From Gloeobacter morelensis MG652769 (GTDB lineage: Bacteria; Cyanobacteriota; Cyanobacteriia; Gloeobacterales; Gloeobacteraceae), in contig NZ_CP063845.1 of NCBI RefSeq assembly GCF_021018745.1, forward strand, positions 248,001 through 312,000: a DNA stretch of 64,000 nucleotides. Direction: 5' to 3'. The first letter of the stretch is position 1; the number at the start of each line of letters is the position of its first letter. Shown piece after piece: positions 20,614 through 30,269 of this stretch. A model generated the notes under the pieces. The model did not search any database and was not told where the DNA came from. It worked only from the letters and a program-made list of their open reading frames with translations. Made by a program: the position numbers and the translations under genes.

Positions 20614-21267
20614 CTACGGCGAACTTGCCGCTGTGGCGACGCGCCGGTCCTCGTCGCGCGCCAAGTAGGCAAGCGCCGCCTTCGCCCTCGGATCGTCCGC
20701 GTGGGGTTGCAGGGCGCGGGCGACACGGTAGCGCGTGCGCCACTCCTGGTCTGCCACCTTGGGCAGCAGTAGCGCCAGCGCCTCGGCGCGCTTTTCGGTG
20801 CGCCCGAGCGCCCCCAATCCGTCGATTCCCGCTTCCACCACAGTCAGGTCGGCGTCTTCGAGGGCGAGGACGCAGATTTGGTAAAGCGCTTCGGTGTGGG
20901 GCGATTCAATCAGCGCCGCCAGGATGCTGCGGCGCACCAGCCACTGATCGTCGAGGCGAAACGCTTCGAGCAGATGGGGCAGGGCGCTCTCGCCGTACAT
21001 CGACAGCGAATTGGCCGCCTCGGCGCGCACGTTATAGTCCCCATCGCCTTTGAGCAATTCCAACAGCGCTGCAAAGGACTCCTCGGTGCGGTGCCGCCCG
21101 AGTCCCATCGCCACAAACGAGCGCACCATAAATTCGGGGTCGCGCCGCTTGGCGAGCAACAGCGGCACCGCCGTCTCGGTGTCGCTGTTGCGCAACTGGG
21201 TCAACCCCCGCAGGCGGTCCTGGGGGTTGTCGCTGGCAAGAGCTTCGCGGACCGCGTCGATGTCCAT
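20614..21267 (-). CDS. HEAT-repeat protein, NblB/CpeF-like
   Basis: 217 aa of HEAT repeats: MDIDAVREALASDNPQDRLR, RSFVAMGLGRHRTEESFAAL, DDQWLVRRSILAALIE, EWRTRYRVARALQPHADDP. The layout (about six repeats, 210-220 aa, short DxxxRxRGLxQLR start) recalls the NblB/CpeF group, which includes phycobilisome-degradation factors and a phycoerythrin beta-subunit bilin chaperone/lyase. The assignment is by remembered pattern and needs a tree. Convergent with the pentapeptide gene with only 4 bp between stops. Confidence 0.7.
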   Translation of the reverse strand: MDIDAVREALASDNPQDRLRGLTQLRNSDTETAVPLLLAKRRDPEFMVRSFVAMGLGRHRTEESFAALLELLKGDGDYNVRAEAANSLSMYGESALPHLLEAFRLDDQWLVRRSILAALIESPHTEALYQICVLALEDADLTVVEAGIDGLGALGRTEKRAEALALLLPKVADQEWRTRYRVARALQPHADDPRAKAALAYLARDEDRRVATAASSP

Positions 21268-21370: not shown

Positions 21371-21613
21371 ATGTCTGACCCACCGGCCGCCCCCGCCTCC
21401 GAGCAAGAAATTGAAGCGGTGATCGCCGAACTGGAACAGTATCGCCAGCGGATCATCGACGATGCGCTGCGCATCGCCAAGTTGGCCAAGGTACCAAAAC
21501 AGGTGACGATGGGCCACCTGGAGAAGCACCCCGAAATTCACCGCATCGATGCGATGCTCGCAGCGCTGCGCGCGGGCGAATCGTTCTCGCTGCCCACCTC
21601 CACAGCCGGGTAG
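21371..21613 (+). CDS. small conserved-looking protein, 80 aa
   Basis: ATG at 21371 with AAGGAGCAAGC upstream. The product begins MSDPPAAPASEQEIEAVIAE and is a single predicted helical hairpin (AVIAELEQYRQRIIDDALRI; HPEIHRIDAMLAALRAG). It is followed after 3 bp by the 290-aa HEAT protein and then the phycobiliprotein-like gene, so the three are probably one operon. Function unknown; it may be a partner of the HEAT protein. Confidence 0.7.
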   Translation: MSDPPAAPASEQEIEAVIAELEQYRQRIIDDALRIAKLAKVPKQVTMGHLEKHPEIHRIDAMLAALRAGESFSLPTSTAG

Positions 21614-21616
21614 CCC

Positions 21617-22489
21617 ATGGTCGACCCGCAACCGTCGGCGCCCACCGCCGAGGCGACCGACCGACTGCTCGATGCGGTGAACGCCCAACTGACCATCGGC
21701 ACCTTCGACACTTCTGACATCGCCCTTTTGGGGCAGATGGTCGCATCGCTGGCCGACGGCCGCGGCATGGTGCGTCTGGGTCTGGTGGAGGCGTTCGGCA
21801 AGATTGGTCTGCCGGCGGTGCCGATGCTGCTGGAGGGCTTGTCCCACCACCCCAACCCGGTGGTACGCCGCTCCTGCGGCAAGGCGCTCGCCAAGACCAG
21901 CGACCCGCAGGCGGTGCCCGTGTTGATCGAAGCTCTGCTGCACGACGAGGACACGGTCGTGCGCAGTTCCGCCGCCGGTGCCCTGGCCAAGATGGGCGAA
22001 GCGGCGGTGCCGCAGTTGATTGCCCTGCTCACCTCCGAGCACTCCGAGACTGCCAAAGGCCATGCCGCCTGGGCCCTCGCCTTCATGGGGGCCGAGGTGG
22101 CCGAACACCTCTACACCGCCTACACCCACCCGGCCGCCGCCGTGCGCACCGCCGTCGTCGCCGCCGTCGCCAACCTCACCCAGGAGACGACCGACGATCG
22201 CGCCGTCACCTTGCTCGAATCGGCGCTCACAGACAGCGCCCCGGAGGTGCGGGCCGAGGCGGCGGCGGCCTTGGGCACCCTGGCCCACCAGCCGGCTGTG
22301 CCGCTGCTGATCGAACAGCTGACCGACCCGAGCCCCGAAGTGCGCAAAACCGCTGCCCTGGCGCTGGCCAAAATTGGCGATCCGACCTCCCTTGGGCCGC
22401 TCGAAGCCCAACTGGCCCGCGAGTCGGGCGAATTGCAGCGGGTGGTGGCCATGGCGCTTGCGCAGCTACAAAAGCGGGCGATGGCTTGA
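21617..22489 (+). CDS. HEAT-repeat (PBS-lyase-like) protein, 290 aa
   Basis: At least six HEAT/PBS_HEAT repeats (MVRLGLVEAFGKIGLPAVPM, VVRRSCGKALAKTSDPQAVP, VVRSSAAGALAKMGEAAVPQ, VRAEAAAALGTLAHQPAVPL, VRKTAALALAKIGDPTSLGP) after an N-terminal segment TEATDRLLDAVNAQL-like. The scaffold is shared by E/F lyases, NblB and non-phycobilisome adaptor proteins. I cannot tell lyase from chaperone. It sits between a small helical protein (3 bp upstream) and the orphan phycobiliprotein-like gene, which may be its client. Confidence 0.8.
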   Translation: MVDPQPSAPTAEATDRLLDAVNAQLTIGTFDTSDIALLGQMVASLADGRGMVRLGLVEAFGKIGLPAVPMLLEGLSHHPNPVVRRSCGKALAKTSDPQAVPVLIEALLHDEDTVVRSSAAGALAKMGEAAVPQLIALLTSEHSETAKGHAAWALAFMGAEVAEHLYTAYTHPAAAVRTAVVAAVANLTQETTDDRAVTLLESALTDSAPEVRAEAAAALGTLAHQPAVPLLIEQLTDPSPEVRKTAALALAKIGDPTSLGPLEAQLARESGELQRVVAMALAQLQKRAMA

Positions 22490-22512: not shown

Positions 22513-23118
22513 ATGCAATCGCCATTGAGTGACCAGGTTAAAGTCCTTATCGCCAAAGCCAAAATCATGGGTTTTGACGATTGGCAGGGCGCCTATCCCG
22601 CCGAGGCCCTCGCCCTGCTGCGCGCCGCCGACGCCGAGAGCCGTTATCTCACCGACGCCGATCTAGACCGTCTAGCTGCGCTGCTGCCGGAGGTGGCACC
22701 TGCGCTGGAGGCGGTGCGTTTTTTGCGCGAGCAGGCCAATCCCATCGTCTCGGCAGCCCGCTCGCAGGTGCTGGAGGAATTTCCTGGCATCACCGAACCT
22801 GGGGGCGATCTTTACCCTCCCGTGCGCGCCGAAGCTTGCTGGCGCGACTACTGGCATTTTCTGCGTTCGATTACCTACGGCATTGCCGCCCGCCGTCCAA
22901 ATTTCACCAGCCCCGAAGGCGTGCACTACCTGCACCTGCTGTATGAGGAGTTGCGGGTGCCGCTTGGAGCGATGCTTCTGGGCATTCACTGCCTTAAAGG
23001 GGCGAGTTTGCAGCATTTTTCGGTCGCTGAGCAGCAGGCGCTTGGCCCCTATTTTGATCATCTGGCGCAGCGGGTGGGGTTTGATCCCCCCCTGCCCCCC
23101 CCTGGGCAGGGGGGGTAG
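22513..23118 (+). CDS. orphan phycobiliprotein-like protein (PF00502 fold)
   Basis: 201 aa from the ATG at 22513 (a TTG at 22486 would add nine residues). The middle aligns with phycobiliprotein alpha chains: EFPGITEPGGDLYPPVRAEACWRDYWHF keeps the bilin-binding Cys (residue 109) and the Arg-Asp of the K-C-x-R-D motif of CpcA/CpeA, followed by LRSITYGIA and VPLGAMLLGIHCLK, ending YFDHLAQRV. The N-terminal 60 residues differ from known subunits. It could be a bilin-binding sensor, an assembly factor or a decayed subunit. The last residues GFDPPLPPPGQGG are encoded by an inverted-repeat element and are not part of the fold. Confidence 0.75.
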   Translation: MQSPLSDQVKVLIAKAKIMGFDDWQGAYPAEALALLRAADAESRYLTDADLDRLAALLPEVAPALEAVRFLREQANPIVSAARSQVLEEFPGITEPGGDLYPPVRAEACWRDYWHFLRSITYGIAARRPNFTSPEGVHYLHLLYEELRVPLGAMLLGIHCLKGASLQHFSVAEQQALGPYFDHLAQRVGFDPPLPPPGQGG

Positions 23119-23332
23119 CCAGGCGGTCCGCGGCGGGCCCGTTGCCTCGCCCGCCCGCTTGAGTCAGTACCGCGCGCGGGCAGTGCGGTTGAGCAGCCAC
23201 AACCTGGTGTCCCTCACCTGCCGGATACCTACACCTCCCCATCCCTCAAGGCGGACCGGAAACCCGGTCCGCCGAACCGCCCAACTCCCCCCCCTTCCCA
23301 GGGGGGGGCAGGGGGGGATCAAACCCCACCCG
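23071..23332. repeat. 262-bp element bounded by a 32-bp perfect inverted repeat
   Basis: The 32 bases at 23071-23102 are the exact reverse complement of 23301-23332; similarity continues imperfectly inward for about 15-20 more bases. The arms are C/G-run-rich (core ggtttgatccccccctg) and each contains its own smaller hairpin. No ORF lies inside. It resembles a MITE or dispersed cyanobacterial palindromic repeat. It forms the 3' ends of both convergent genes. Confidence 0.75.
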
Positions 23333-23899
23333 CTTCTCAAAGCGCAACGGCCCCGCCTGCGAACCCCAGATTTGCCGGTGGGTTTCGCGGTCCATGCCGC
23401 GATCGAGGCTCACCCAGGTGCTCTCGGTGAGTTCGACTTCACTTACCAGATAGGTCCAGTGCCCATCGCGGGGGATAAGACAGTGGTTGCCAGGTTCGAC
23501 ACTGCCGCGAAAACAATCTCCCTCGCGGCGGAAAACCATCGCGCAGCCCCGGCGCAGTCGCAGACAGTCGGTGGGGATAGTCGCCAAGATCTCAGGGTCG
23601 TGTCCGGCCCCGGCGTAGAGCCCCGCATCCTGAAGGCCATAATTTTCGATATAGATGCTGCCGCCCTCCCGGTCGAGCAGGCGGTGCAGCCCCTGGCGGT
23701 AGGGGCTCCAGAGGTCGTAGTCGTAGGTTTGCTCGGAGTAGAAGCCCACGGCGCCAAAAAAAGCCAAGGGCAACGGCCGGAAGAAAATACGGATGTGCGC
23801 AAAGGTCTGCGGTTGGGCGAGGGCCTGCTTCTGGTTGCTAAAATCGCCCGCCATCCAGCGCGCCAGGGTCAGCAAATCCTCGGAGGGTGCGGTTGCCAT
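23246..23899 (-). CDS. cpeT: CpeT/CpcT-family bilin lyase
   Basis: 217 aa. T-type lyases attach bilin to the Cys153-165 site of beta subunits. Signature stretches: LLTLARWMAGDFSNQKQALA, FAHIRIFFRPLPLAFFGAVG, YSEQTYDYDLWSPYRQGL, WVSLDRGMDRETHRQIWGS. The usual family end is near GPLRFEK; the extra tail (GFDPPLPPPGKGG onward) comes from the inverted-repeat element. The start at 23899 is 3 bp after the stop of the S-type lyase gene, giving a cpeS-cpcS-cpeT operon. Phycoerythrin specificity is inferred from nearby cpeBA. Confidence 0.87.
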   Translation of the reverse strand: MATAPSEDLLTLARWMAGDFSNQKQALAQPQTFAHIRIFFRPLPLAFFGAVGFYSEQTYDYDLWSPYRQGLHRLLDREGGSIYIENYGLQDAGLYAGAGHDPEILATIPTDCLRLRRGCAMVFRREGDCFRGSVEPGNHCLIPRDGHWTYLVSEVELTESTWVSLDRGMDRETHRQIWGSQAGPLRFEKRVGFDPPLPPPGKGGELGGSADRVSGPP

Positions 23900-23901
23900 C
23901 G

Positions 23902-24444
23902 CTACTTCGCAAGAGCACGGATTTCAGAAGAAAACGAAGCGGTCGTCACCCCGGCTCCGTCGCGCGTGCGGATAAGCGAGACGCGAAAGCGCACGTTGGG
24001 CGTTGCAAACCAGATGCGCTCCTCCGCGCTTGCCCGCTCGTAGTCTGTGAACAGCACAAAGGTGCCGTCGGGACCCAAGGCATACTCGCCCACCGCCGCC
24101 ACCGTCTCGGCGTAACCTTGATCGCGCAGCAGCTTGCCTCTGGTGGCGTCGCCGGGATCGGGCACCGGTACCAGCACGGTGGAACCCTCGAACGTGGCGT
24201 TTTCCTCCCAGTCCGACTCGCCCTGCCAGCGCATGCGAAATGGGTGGGTGATCGCTTCGGCACAGACAGCGTAGCGCTGGCACAGCGCTACCACCGCCGG
24301 GTCGGCAACCGTGAGCGGCTCGATGTCGATGGTCGAGCGCACCTCCTCAAAGTGGCTGAAGGCCAGGTGGTGACCGCTGCGCTGGGAGCGCCAACGGCCG
24401 AAGGACTGCTCAAAAAATTCGGCGACGTGTTTGACGATGGCCAC
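23902..24444 (-). CDS. CpcS/CpeU-family bilin lyase
   Basis: 180 aa, GTG start at 24444. S-type lyase fold: EFFEQSFGRWRSQRSGHHLAF, then FTDYERASAEERIWFATPNV and VRFRVSLIRT. Second of a tandem S-type pair (10 bp after the upstream gene), which in other cyanobacteria can act as a heterodimer (CpcS/CpcU or CpeS/CpeU). Bilin and target site are not determinable from sequence. Confidence 0.84.
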   Translation of the reverse strand: MAIVKHVAEFFEQSFGRWRSQRSGHHLAFSHFEEVRSTIDIEPLTVADPAVVALCQRYAVCAEAITHPFRMRWQGESDWEENATFEGSTVLVPVPDPGDATRGKLLRDQGYAETVAAVGEYALGPDGTFVLFTDYERASAEERIWFATPNVRFRVSLIRTRDGAGVTTASFSSEIRALAK

Positions 24445-24454
24445 GGCAGGGAAG

Positions 24455-25060
24455 TTACCAACCCCACAGTGAGTAGGAGCGCTCCGTCTTGACGGCGGTG
24501 CGCGCCTGGGGTTCTACGGCTGCCGCAGCGGCAGCCACCCGCTTCTCGGCGCAAAAAGTCGCTGTGCTGAAACCGCCGAAGCGCTTGAGGGTGCTGGTGC
24601 GCAGACGCAAATCGGGAGCCGCGAACCAGAAGCGCTCCACTACGCTCATCGTTTCGTACTCGGTGATCAGGTTCAGGCCGTCCTCTGCGTCCATGGCGTA
24701 CTGCCCCGCCACCGGCGCCACCTCGGCGTAGCCGCGCTCGCGCAAGAGCCGCCCCCGACGGCCGTCCGGGCTATCTGGAACGATCACCATCACAGTCGAG
24801 CCTTTGTGCTGTTCCTCATCCTGGCGATCCCAGTCCATACGACCGTGCCAGCTGACCAGGGCGCCGCCCGCCGCCAGGGCCGGGTCTACGCCGTGGTAGG
24901 TACAAAGCTCGGCTACCGCCGGATCGGCGGCGGCCAGAGCCTCCACCACAATGTCCGATTCACCCAGCTCCGAGCGCCGAAAGGCCAGGTGGTGGGTCGT
25001 TCGTTGCGACTGCCAACGCCCCGCGCTCAACCGAAAAAATTCCATAGCATCTGTCGCCAC
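24455..25060 (-). CDS. cpeS: CpeS-family bilin lyase
   Basis: 201 aa from a GTG at 25060 that has AGGAG eight bases upstream; ATG at 25045 (MEFFRLSAGRWQSQRTTHHL) is the alternative. Typical S-type features: TTHHLAFRRSELGESDIVV, LITEYETMSVVERFWFAAPDLRLRTS (in pieces) and a C-terminal TFCAEKRV. Likely loads phycoerythrobilin at Cys82 of CpeB. It is divergent from cpeBA, sharing a 308-bp intergenic region, so may be co-regulated with it. Confidence 0.86.
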   Translation of the reverse strand: MATDAMEFFRLSAGRWQSQRTTHHLAFRRSELGESDIVVEALAAADPAVAELCTYHGVDPALAAGGALVSWHGRMDWDRQDEEQHKGSTVMVIVPDSPDGRRGRLLRERGYAEVAPVAGQYAMDAEDGLNLITEYETMSVVERFWFAAPDLRLRTSTLKRFGGFSTATFCAEKRVAAAAAAVEPQARTAVKTERSYSLWGW

Positions 25061-26453
<1,393 letters not shown>

Positions 26454-26583: not shown

Positions 26584-27867
26584 ATGGAAAACCGCTTTTT
26601 GAATATTTTTCCCGGCCTCAGCGAGGAACGGGCGATCGAACTGTTGTACACGCCGATGGACCAGCTTGAGGATGCCTCCGAGCGCTATATCGCCGCTGCC
26701 CATCTGGTCAATTTCCCGAGCGATCGGGCCGTCGACGCGCTTATCGCCGCGGTCGAAAACGGCGATTCGGCCCTCGACAACCGCATCGTGCGCCGCAAAG
26801 CGGTGGAGACGCTCGGGCGGCTCAAAGTCGAGCGCTCCCTGCCGGTGATCCGCGCCTGTCTGCAGGACGAGGATAACTATCTGGTCGAAAACGCCGCCTG
26901 GGCGATTGGCGAAATCGGTTGCAACGACCCGGAAATCCTCGAAGAACTGACCGCGCTGCTTGCCAAACCCCGCCAGAGCTACCGCACGATCATCCAGACG
27001 CTCGCCAAGCTGGGCTACACCCCCGCCACCGGGCGCATCGCCGCTTTTGAGCAATCGCCTGAGCCACCGATTGCCAGTGCCGCGATTACCGCCGTGGGCC
27101 GTCTGAGCGGCGAGCGGGCGGGGCTGGAGCGGCTGCTGCCGTTTTTGCAGCACCCGAATGTCAACGCCCGGCGGGGCGTCATTCAGGATCTGATGGATAG
27201 CGCATACTGCGAAGCCATCCCCCGCATCGCCGCCTGCCCGGTCTCAGCCGTATTCCGGCTGCGCGGCATCCGACATCTGGCCGATGCCGGGGTGCCGACC
27301 GGAGCGGTTTCCTTTGAGCAGGTAGAATCCAGCCTCGACCGGGTGATCGTCGATCATCCCCGCTTTCTGGAGCCGGTGCACTGCTACGAGCGCACCCCCC
27401 GGCTGGAGGAATTGATCGAAGAACTGTACAGTACCGACTTCGGCCGCTGTTATCTGGCCACCCAGACGATCGTCGATCACTACCCCGACGCCGGTCCCGC
27501 CCTGGTCGCCTCCTTTGAAGCTGCAGGCCACAACGACTACGGTGCCCACTACCACATCGTCAAGCTGTTGGGCTGGCTGCGCTTCGCCGAGGCGCAGGAC
27601 ATTGTCGTTGGGGCTTTGCACGACCGCCGGCCGCAATTTATGAAGTCGCGCGCCGCCGCCGCCATCGCCCTGGCCGAGTGGGGAGATACCCGGGTGCTGG
27701 CGGATTTGCGCGCGTGCCTGGATTCGTTTATCTGGGAACTCAAGTACGCCTGCCTGATTGCCCTCGAACACCTCGAAGATCCGACGGGGGCGCAAGTTGC
27801 CCTGCAGGACGCCGATTGGGTCGTGCGCGCCAAGGCCGAACGGCAGTGCGCTGCGCTTGCAAAGTAG
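26584..27867 (+). CDS. cpeY: phycoerythrin lyase/chaperone CpeY
   Basis: 427 aa, the typical CpeY length, of HEAT repeats. Starts MENRFLNIFPGLSEERAIEL; other recognisable pieces are ASERYIAAAHLVNFPSDRAV, LDNRIVRRKAVETLGRL and EDNYLVENAAWAIGEIG. CpeY ligates phycoerythrobilin to Cys82 of CpeA, assisted by CpeZ, which is encoded 70 bp downstream. The frame opens at 26500 but the hairpin region and lack of homology argue for the ATG at 26584. Confidence 0.92.
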   Translation: MENRFLNIFPGLSEERAIELLYTPMDQLEDASERYIAAAHLVNFPSDRAVDALIAAVENGDSALDNRIVRRKAVETLGRLKVERSLPVIRACLQDEDNYLVENAAWAIGEIGCNDPEILEELTALLAKPRQSYRTIIQTLAKLGYTPATGRIAAFEQSPEPPIASAAITAVGRLSGERAGLERLLPFLQHPNVNARRGVIQDLMDSAYCEAIPRIAACPVSAVFRLRGIRHLADAGVPTGAVSFEQVESSLDRVIVDHPRFLEPVHCYERTPRLEELIEELYSTDFGRCYLATQTIVDHYPDAGPALVASFEAAGHNDYGAHYHIVKLLGWLRFAEAQDIVVGALHDRRPQFMKSRAAAAIALAEWGDTRVLADLRACLDSFIWELKYACLIALEHLEDPTGAQVALQDADWVVRAKAERQCAALAK

Positions 27868-27937
27868 GTGTCAGCCTGACGCCTGACACAATTGTGAGAA
27901 TTTGTCCTCAAATTGATCACTTTATTGTGTGAATGCG

Positions 27938-28552
27938 ATGTCTCTCGAAGAAAGGTATCCGCAGCTCAAGCACAAAAATCCCCGCCTGCGCGAGCGGGCC
28001 ATGCACCAGGTGGCCGACGAGCGCACCGAAGATACGCTGGCGCAGTTGATGGCTGTCCTCGCCGAGGAGGATGTCACCTACCGGCGCACGGCGGTGCAGA
28101 CTCTGGGCATCATCGGCCCGGATGCAGTACCGGCTCTGGCGCAACAGTTGACCGACCATCCCAACACCACCGTGCGGGCTAGTTGCGCCAAGGCGCTCGC
28201 CGCCATTGCCCTCAACTACCCGGAAATTCCCATGGCTTCGGAGGGGCTTGAAGCCCTTGCCACCGCCCTGCGCGACCCGGATCCGGTGGTCAAACTCTCG
28301 GCGGTGGGCGCCCTGGGTACTGTGGGAAGCCCGGCCTTCGATATTCTGGCTGCGGCTCTCGATTTGGATGACCTGGCCGTTTCGATGGCGGTTATCGGAG
28401 CGCTCGCTTCCGTGGGGGATCCGCGCGGCCGGACGATCTTGGAATCGCTGGCGGCCCGGCCCAATCTCGATGCTTATCTGTACGAAGCGGCTACCGGCGC
28501 TCTGTCACGCCTGGCCGAGCATCGCCCCTGGAACAGCGGCTCATCTCAATAG
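27938..28552 (+). CDS. cpeZ: phycoerythrin lyase accessory protein CpeZ
   Basis: 204 aa from the ATG at 27938 (a GTG three codons earlier is possible; neither has a clear ribosome site). HEAT-repeat protein with the CpeZ pattern LKHKNPRLRERAMHQVADER, EEDVTYRRTAVQTLGIIGPD. CpeZ acts as a chaperone-like partner of CpeY and stabilises phycoerythrin subunits. Its stop region overlaps the convergent cpeR stop by 7 bp. Confidence 0.92.
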   Translation: MSLEERYPQLKHKNPRLRERAMHQVADERTEDTLAQLMAVLAEEDVTYRRTAVQTLGIIGPDAVPALAQQLTDHPNTTVRASCAKALAAIALNYPEIPMASEGLEALATALRDPDPVVKLSAVGALGTVGSPAFDILAAALDLDDLAVSMAVIGALASVGDPRGRTILESLAARPNLDAYLYEAATGALSRLAEHRPWNSGSSQ

Positions 28553-29229: not shown

Positions 29230-29718
29230 TTAGCTCAGGGCGTTGATGCAGTAGTCGATGTAGGCGTTCGCCTCGGTGAGCGGCTGGCCCGACAGCTGCG
29301 AACCCACCTTGCCCTTGATGTGCTTCAACGCCTCGATGTACCAGCTCGGCGACAGGTTGAACGCCCGGTTCACCTCCCGCAGACCCGCCACGATGTAGTC
29401 GTCCAACGGACCGGTGCCACCCGCCACCAGACTGTAAGTAATAAAGCGCAGATAGTGGCTGATATCGCGCGCGCACTTCGCCTGGTTGGTGTCGCCGTAG
29501 CCCATCTGACCCGGCTGCGTCAGGTACGGAAACTTGTTGTACACCTCTTGAACCGCTCCTTTCACCAGCGAATCGGCGTTCGCGGTCAGCGCCCGCGCCG
29601 CTTCCATCGAGGACACCGCCCGCTGGAAACGGCCGTTCGCCGCCTGCAACTCGGTGTTGTTCAAAAAACGTCCCTGGCTGTCCGCCGAGGCGATCACTTC
29701 GGTAATCACGGTCTTCAT
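29230..29718 (-). CDS. cpcA: C-phycocyanin alpha subunit
   Basis: 162 aa. Single bilin Cys at 82 (Cys84 in standard numbering) in [15 protein letters not shown], with the classic [22 protein letters not shown] following. Starts [20 protein letters not shown] after a CAGGAGAACGACAAGC site. It follows cpcB by 32 bp. Its bilin is attached by CpcE/CpcF, encoded about 19 kb away in the linker operon, so lyase and client are unlinked here. Confidence 0.97.
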
Positions 29719-29750
29719 GCTTGTCGTTCTCCTGTCTCGGTGGGTGAAAG

Positions 29751-30269
29751 CTAGGCGATGCTCGCAGCAGCCTTGTCAAAATAGGTGGCCGCTTCGTTGA
29801 CCAGCGCCGAACAGTCGCCGCGGGTCACCCCGGCGGGGCTGTTGACGTAGCCTATCGCCGATTCTTTCATCAGTTGGACCGCGCGGGCCACCGAACGGGT
29901 CGGGGTGCCCAGCGCCACGTAGGTCTCTTTGAGGCCGTTGAGGCAGCGGTCTTCGAGCACCGACGCGTCGCCGGCCAAAAGCGCGTAGGAGACGTAGCGC
30001 AGGATGATTTCCATGTCGCGCAGGCAGGCGGCCATGCGGCGGTTGGGGTAAGCGTTGCCGCCCGGACGAATCAGGTCGGTCTGCTCGGCGAACAGTTTGT
30101 GGGCGGCATCGGAGATGATTTCGGCGGCGTTGCCGGTGATGGCGTTGACGGCGTCGAGGCGCTTGTTGGATTCTTTGACCAGGTTGGTCAGCTGGTTGAG
30201 TTCCTGCTCGTTGAGGAACGACCCGCGCAGATCCGCCGCAACAATGGCTTTGGTGAATGCGTCTTGCAT
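29751..30269 (-). CDS. cpcB: C-phycocyanin beta subunit
   Basis: 172 aa, the exact usual length, from the ATG at 30269 ([20 protein letters not shown]); the longer frame to 30404 has no homologous N-terminus. Bilin cysteines at 82 ([10 protein letters not shown]) and 153 (TRGDCSALV), plus the structural C109. No Cys50/61 pair, distinguishing it from cpe[13 protein letters not shown] carries the Asn72 methylation site. First gene of cpcBA; loaded by S-type and CpcT lyases. Confidence 0.97.

Follow-up and report, generated by a model that had tools for sequence, protein, structure and literature searches.

An AplA-type allophycocyanin-like protein of Gloeobacter morelensis, probably a non-antenna accessory of the phycoerythrin programme

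In this study, we have examined a gene at 22513..23118 (+) in a window of Gloeobacter morelensis MG652769 (the whole 64,000-nucleotide stretch of DNA that was analysed), and we are nearly certain that its 201-aa product is a member of the AplA, or allophycocyanin-like (Apl), family. Our preferred reading, which we hold as likely, is that AplA is a soluble, bilin-binding, non-antenna accessory of the phycoerythrin (PE) programme, derived from allophycocyanin and acting as a single subunit outside the phycobilisome. The parts of this reading differ in strength. Judged from sequence and model, covalent bilin binding is highly probable and a non-antenna role only slightly less so, and both are supported by an invariant CWRD bilin site, a predicted globin fold and the lack of a close counterpart among solved phycobilisome chains. 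A role in phycoerythrin biogenesis or bilin supply is a tentative proposal, to which we give somewhat less than an even chance. The AplA family itself is known already and functionally unsolved, no established function having been reported for this biliprotein since 2004 as far as the surveyed literature shows, and the Gloeobacter gene is a well-supported additional member. What is new here is the invariance of the CWRD site, the tracking of phycoerythrin together with carriage alongside its genes on plasmids, the displaced X-Y helices of the model and a recurrent HEAT-repeat neighbour.

Family identity, bilin site and predicted fold

The reading frame is genuine, with an ATG start, and its assignment draws on the ORF, Pfam, alignment and a tree. 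As the initial annotation had it, the middle of the protein (residues 36-187) is PF00502-like, with an E-value of 1.3e-46 that lies well past chance level. The top NCBIfam models are ApcA (69 bits, cut-off 270) and ApcB (66 bits, cut-off 228), those for CpeB, CpcB, CpeA and CpcA score lower, and no curated phycobilisome-subunit model (ApcA/ApcD type) is passed at its equivalog cut-off; scores so far under these cut-offs mark the product as a phycobiliprotein relative and no standard subunit. In the PDB, the top match is an ApcA chain (ApcA2) with 73 bits only, and no close match was found among solved phycobilisome chains, Gloeobacter violaceus entries included, in a comparison made by sequence that an unsolved or distant relative could escape.

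The Apl family is said to have been named by Montgomery et al. (2004, J Bacteriol), with AplA of Fremyella diplosiphon as its type member, and to have been defined by a 28-residue extension, retained chromophore residues and absence from phycobilisomes. In our maximum-likelihood tree, all 41 relatives (the query and 40 orthologues) form a single clade with 100/100 support, separate from CpeA, CpeB, CpcA, CpcB, ApcA, ApcB and ApcD. The clade includes the marine Synechococcus gene termed aplA in the literature, recognised by gene order: in most of the 13 picocyanobacterial relatives aplA is followed by a rod linker (cpcGII) and then a pentapeptide gene, and Six et al. (2007; PMC2246261) place aplA between unk4, which precedes it, and cpcGII, which follows. 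For these authors AplA is a photoreceptor, a homologue of ApcA that has no phycobilisome link, and Apl proteins are also described elsewhere (PMC8622606). We therefore filed the gene as aplA on the 28-residue offset, the picocyanobacterial locus order and the 100/100 clade, a filing that rests on the clade and the published locus order, the F. diplosiphon type sequence lying outside the tree. This takes away the label of orphan under which the gene had first been annotated. Like Apl proteins, the Gloeobacter protein is closest to allophycocyanin, has a 28-residue N-terminal extension and keeps the bilin cysteine, and its gene has no partner gene; this member from the Gloeobacter lineage differs in that its gene stands behind a CpeF-like one in a presumed operon and has a tail derived from a palindrome.

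The bilin site, C109-W110-R111-D112, is encoded at 22837..22848 (+), with the Cys109 codon at 22837-22839. In the alignment, Cys109 coincides with the central bilin cysteine of ApcA, CpcA and CpeA, and of all beta chains, and is followed by Arg111 and Asp112, in agreement with what had been claimed for both. The motif is unchanged in 41/41 family members, at identities to the query down to 30%. Its Cys, Arg and Asp are shared by all of the 40 canonical phycobiliproteins compared, and the Trp is specific to the AplA family. L12, L46, L100, P102, R105, F116, R118, Y122, G136, Y144, V149 and P150 are likewise fixed in all 41 members. The family is without the equivalents of canonical Gly127 (97% Gly in canonical subunits), Gly139 (100% Gly) and Glu142 (100% Glu). 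Among the equivalents of the classical alpha-beta contacts, Asp40 is kept in 85% of AplA sequences and Arg118 and Tyr122 always, so AplA could still form a dimer. Compared with ApcA/ApcD, AplA thus shares the PF00502 fold, the central Cys-x-Arg-Asp site and the Arg118/Tyr122 equivalents, and differs in its roughly 30% identity, its N-terminal extension, the Trp after the Cys, the missing Gly/Glu positions and, in the model, the placement of the X-Y helices.

The N-terminus, initially taken to be novel, turned out to be shared. The ApcA alignment offset, orthologue conservation and the model delimit an extension encoded at 22513..22596 (+): AplA residue 37/38 pairs with ApcA 9/10, which gives an extension of exactly 28 residues followed by a collinear domain. 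The extension carries a LIxKARIxSFxxW motif conserved among orthologues, and AlphaFold2 predicts a helix in it at residues 7-15.

Whether the fold would be globin-like had been named as one of the points on which the initial annotation should stand or fall; AlphaFold2, given a 41-row alignment, predicted a confident globin core, with a mean pLDDT of 93. Over 130 residues, this core (residues 60-191) comes within 1.7-2.0 A of smURFP and of a far-red biliprotein derived from allophycocyanin. When residues from about 24 to 189 are taken together, the agreement with most ApcA chains is poorer, at 3.7-4.6 A for the 144-148 residues matched, and Foldseek puts the full alignment at about 8.4 A. ApcA of the same genome, predicted from a 29-row canonical alignment and used as a control, reaches 1.7 A against ApcA structures across 160 residues; this control is inside the AlphaFold training set, so the contrast is itself a prediction. 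The X-Y helices before residue 60 are where AplA and ApcA differ. In antenna proteins these helices clasp the partner subunit, and the model points to a loss of the canonical X-Y pairing geometry in AplA. Like smURFP (7uqa) and 6hrk, AplA would have a globin core that stands without the antenna clasp, which makes these stand-alone biliproteins its analogues; they are engineered or derived fragments, in contrast to the natural AplA with its additional helices at the N-terminus.

Distribution and gene neighbourhood

We followed AplA through 292 genomes spread evenly over the phylum, counting as an orthologue any match of at least 75 bits that reached into the N-terminal extension. Orthologues with intact ORFs were present in 38 of them. 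CpeB was above cut-off in 43, seven of which are small, Prochlorococcus-like genomes without phycobilisomes. Phycobilisomes are present in 118 genomes, of which 34 carry both AplA and CpeB, four AplA only, two CpeB only and 78 neither (Fisher p 9e-23, a value that ignores kinship). Seven genera that hold genomes of both kinds (g7, g13, g18, g21, g34, g46 and g48) provide a partial control for kinship, and within them AplA follows phycoerythrin exactly. The four AplA-only genomes have neither CpeB nor PebA and retain the CWRD site. Their bilin would therefore be phycocyanobilin, and the role of AplA cannot strictly require phycoerythrin; a strict dependence on phycoerythrobilin (PEB) is ruled out by the same four genomes. 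In one genome without aplA (G099), pieces of a broken pebA with stops remain at C1:1934390-1935436 and adjoin an intact HEAT gene (C1:1935569-1936204) of the type that neighbours aplA elsewhere, which looks like the loss of a phycoerythrin programme.

The association extends to plasmids. In Rippkaea PCC 8801, Gloeothece PCC 7424 and Pseudanabaena PCC 7367, aplA sits with phycoerythrin genes on plasmids, where it is annotated merely as "phycobilisome protein" or "phycocyanin". One of these three plasmids (L079, L080 and L081) is typed as mobilizable and one as conjugative, and those of Rippkaea and Gloeothece hold a near-complete phycoerythrin set (cpeBA, pebAB, lyases, linkers). No aplA was found in the phage records or viral contigs searched.

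In the window, aplA would be the third gene of a presumed operon. The first is a small conserved ORF of 80 aa (21371..21613, +) without a Pfam match; several genomes of phycoerythrin producers have a relative of it adjoining the CpeF-like HEAT gene. After 3 bp comes that HEAT-repeat gene (21617..22489, +), which ends 23 bp upstream of aplA. Its presence equals that of phycoerythrin in 42/42 genomes tested, and it is probably CpeF, the lyase for a doubly linked bilin. Gloeobacter is among the genus names listed in a published CpeF/MpeV tree (PMC7948978). As a partner of AplA this gene is ruled out, since it tracks phycoerythrin rather than AplA. A second HEAT-repeat gene, of the NblB/CpcE-F class (20614..21267, -), is the recurrent neighbour: genes of its type lie within three genes of aplA at 17/28 non-picocyanobacterial loci, often divergent and directly adjoining it even at loci without a phycoerythrin gene nearby, and are found, at 140 bits or more, in 20/25 non-picocyanobacterial AplA genomes. 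Eight genomes with this HEAT gene and without aplA, and five with the reverse, dispose of it as a strict dedicated partner.

On the other side, facing aplA, lie genes for a CpeT-family lyase (23246..23899, -; PF06206, E 6.5e-69) and two CpeS-family lyases (23902..24444, -; PF09367, E 8.7e-64; and 24455..25099, -; PF09367, E 1.1e-71), followed by the phycoerythrin subunit genes cpeB and cpeA (25369..26453, +) and by cpeY and cpeZ-like HEAT-repeat lyase/chaperone genes (26584..28552, +). The setting of HEAT proteins and bilin lyases that had been noted for aplA is therefore real, as is the absence of a partner subunit: none adjoins, and the subunit genes nearby are ordinary cpeBA, cpcBA and an apcD-like gene. 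A further copy of the cpcBA pair (29236-30248), identical to it in family scores, lies at C1:1889815-1890827.

Possible roles of AplA

The initial annotation had offered a bilin-binding assembly factor or a light sensor. The bilin binding in this proposal has good support from the invariant site and the globin fold; as to the choice, the association with phycoerythrin biogenesis favours the assembly factor and still allows the sensor. In the latter, AplA would be a photoreceptor by virtue of a covalent bilin and would signal the colour of light by way of a partner protein, a role that the original describers of AplA reportedly suggested as well. We consider this unlikely, though it is the strongest competitor of our preferred reading. 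It was put forward by Six et al. (PMC2246261), and both the invariance of the bilin site and the persistence of AplA in the four genomes without phycoerythrin speak for it. Against this, AplA has no output domain in Pfam, the loci compared show no recurrent kinase or regulator gene next to aplA, and the protein is tied tightly to phycoerythrin genes and not to colour-sensing systems; moreover, the phycoerythrin of Gloeobacter violaceus is reportedly constitutive, no regulator of chromatic acclimation being known in this species (PMC9415938).

The other explanations are harder to reconcile with our data. If AplA were a globin-fold chaperone of phycoerythrin subunits that carries no chromophore, its cysteine being a relic, its phycoerythrin-linked distribution would be accounted for; a relic would drift, however, and Cys109-Trp-Arg-Asp holds in every member while the rest of the protein diverges, which makes this improbable. 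We regard as slightly more improbable still that AplA is a minor antenna subunit replacing an alpha chain at some phycobilisome position. Its PF00502 fold and its Asp40, Arg118 and Tyr122 would suit such a place, but it has no close counterpart among solved phycobilisome chains, the extension, the lost Gly139/Glu142 equivalents and the repositioned X-Y helices of the model argue otherwise, and AplA of F. diplosiphon is reported to be unlinked to phycobilisomes (PMC2246261). Finally, aplA is among the fastest-evolving genes of the cluster (89% identity to its sister vs 99% for cpeA/B), as a decaying paralogue without function would be; we give this almost no credence, as its dN/dS of 0.34 against Aphanocapsa lilacina indicates purifying selection, and intact ORFs across 38/292 genomes and the invariant site point the same way.

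Returning to the non-antenna accessory that we prefer, a possible sequence of events would start with the attachment of a single bilin to Cys109 by an S-type lyase (CpeS/CpcS), allophycocyanin being loaded by lyases of this class. The N-terminal extension and the repositioned X-Y helices would cover the face on which a beta subunit could otherwise dock, and the protein so capped would stay out of antenna trimers. Holo-AplA could then serve phycoerythrin biogenesis as a bilin reservoir or sensor, or as an assembly factor, holding or reporting the state of bilin or light, possibly via the neighbouring HEAT-repeat protein. A more specific version, which we offer as speculation and rate as rather doubtful, would make AplA a checkpoint of phycoerythrin synthesis, a single subunit that receives its bilin from the same lyases, reports bilin supply (or light) to phycoerythrin assembly through an adjacent HEAT partner and travels with the phycoerythrin genes as part of a mobile pigment module. 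The tie to phycoerythrin, the one HEAT-repeat neighbour and the predicted loss of the clasp replace the label of photoreceptor with a few testable roles for AplA. The presence of AplA in the Gloeobacter lineage points to an early reuse of antenna proteins outside the antenna in the history of cyanobacteria, or else to movement of the gene between lineages along with phycoerythrin genes.

A palindrome-derived C-terminal tail

The end of the Gloeobacter protein lies outside the features of the family. Its final ~12 residues (GFDPPLPPPGQGG), encoded at 23079..23118 (+), arise from a G/C-rich palindrome at the 3' end of the gene, and we rejected this tail as a family feature on that ground. An inverted copy of the palindrome endows the facing cpeT ORF with an identical type of tail. 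The ~200 bp between aplA and cpeT (23079-23325) are flanked by these inverted C7/G7 palindrome copies, and the segment gives both facing genes the tail VGFDPPLPPPG(Q/K)GG. It is absent in Aphanocapsa lilacina (L039), which has a single palindrome. Partial copies occur elsewhere in the Gloeobacter morelensis genome, and the segment looks like a small mobile repeat.
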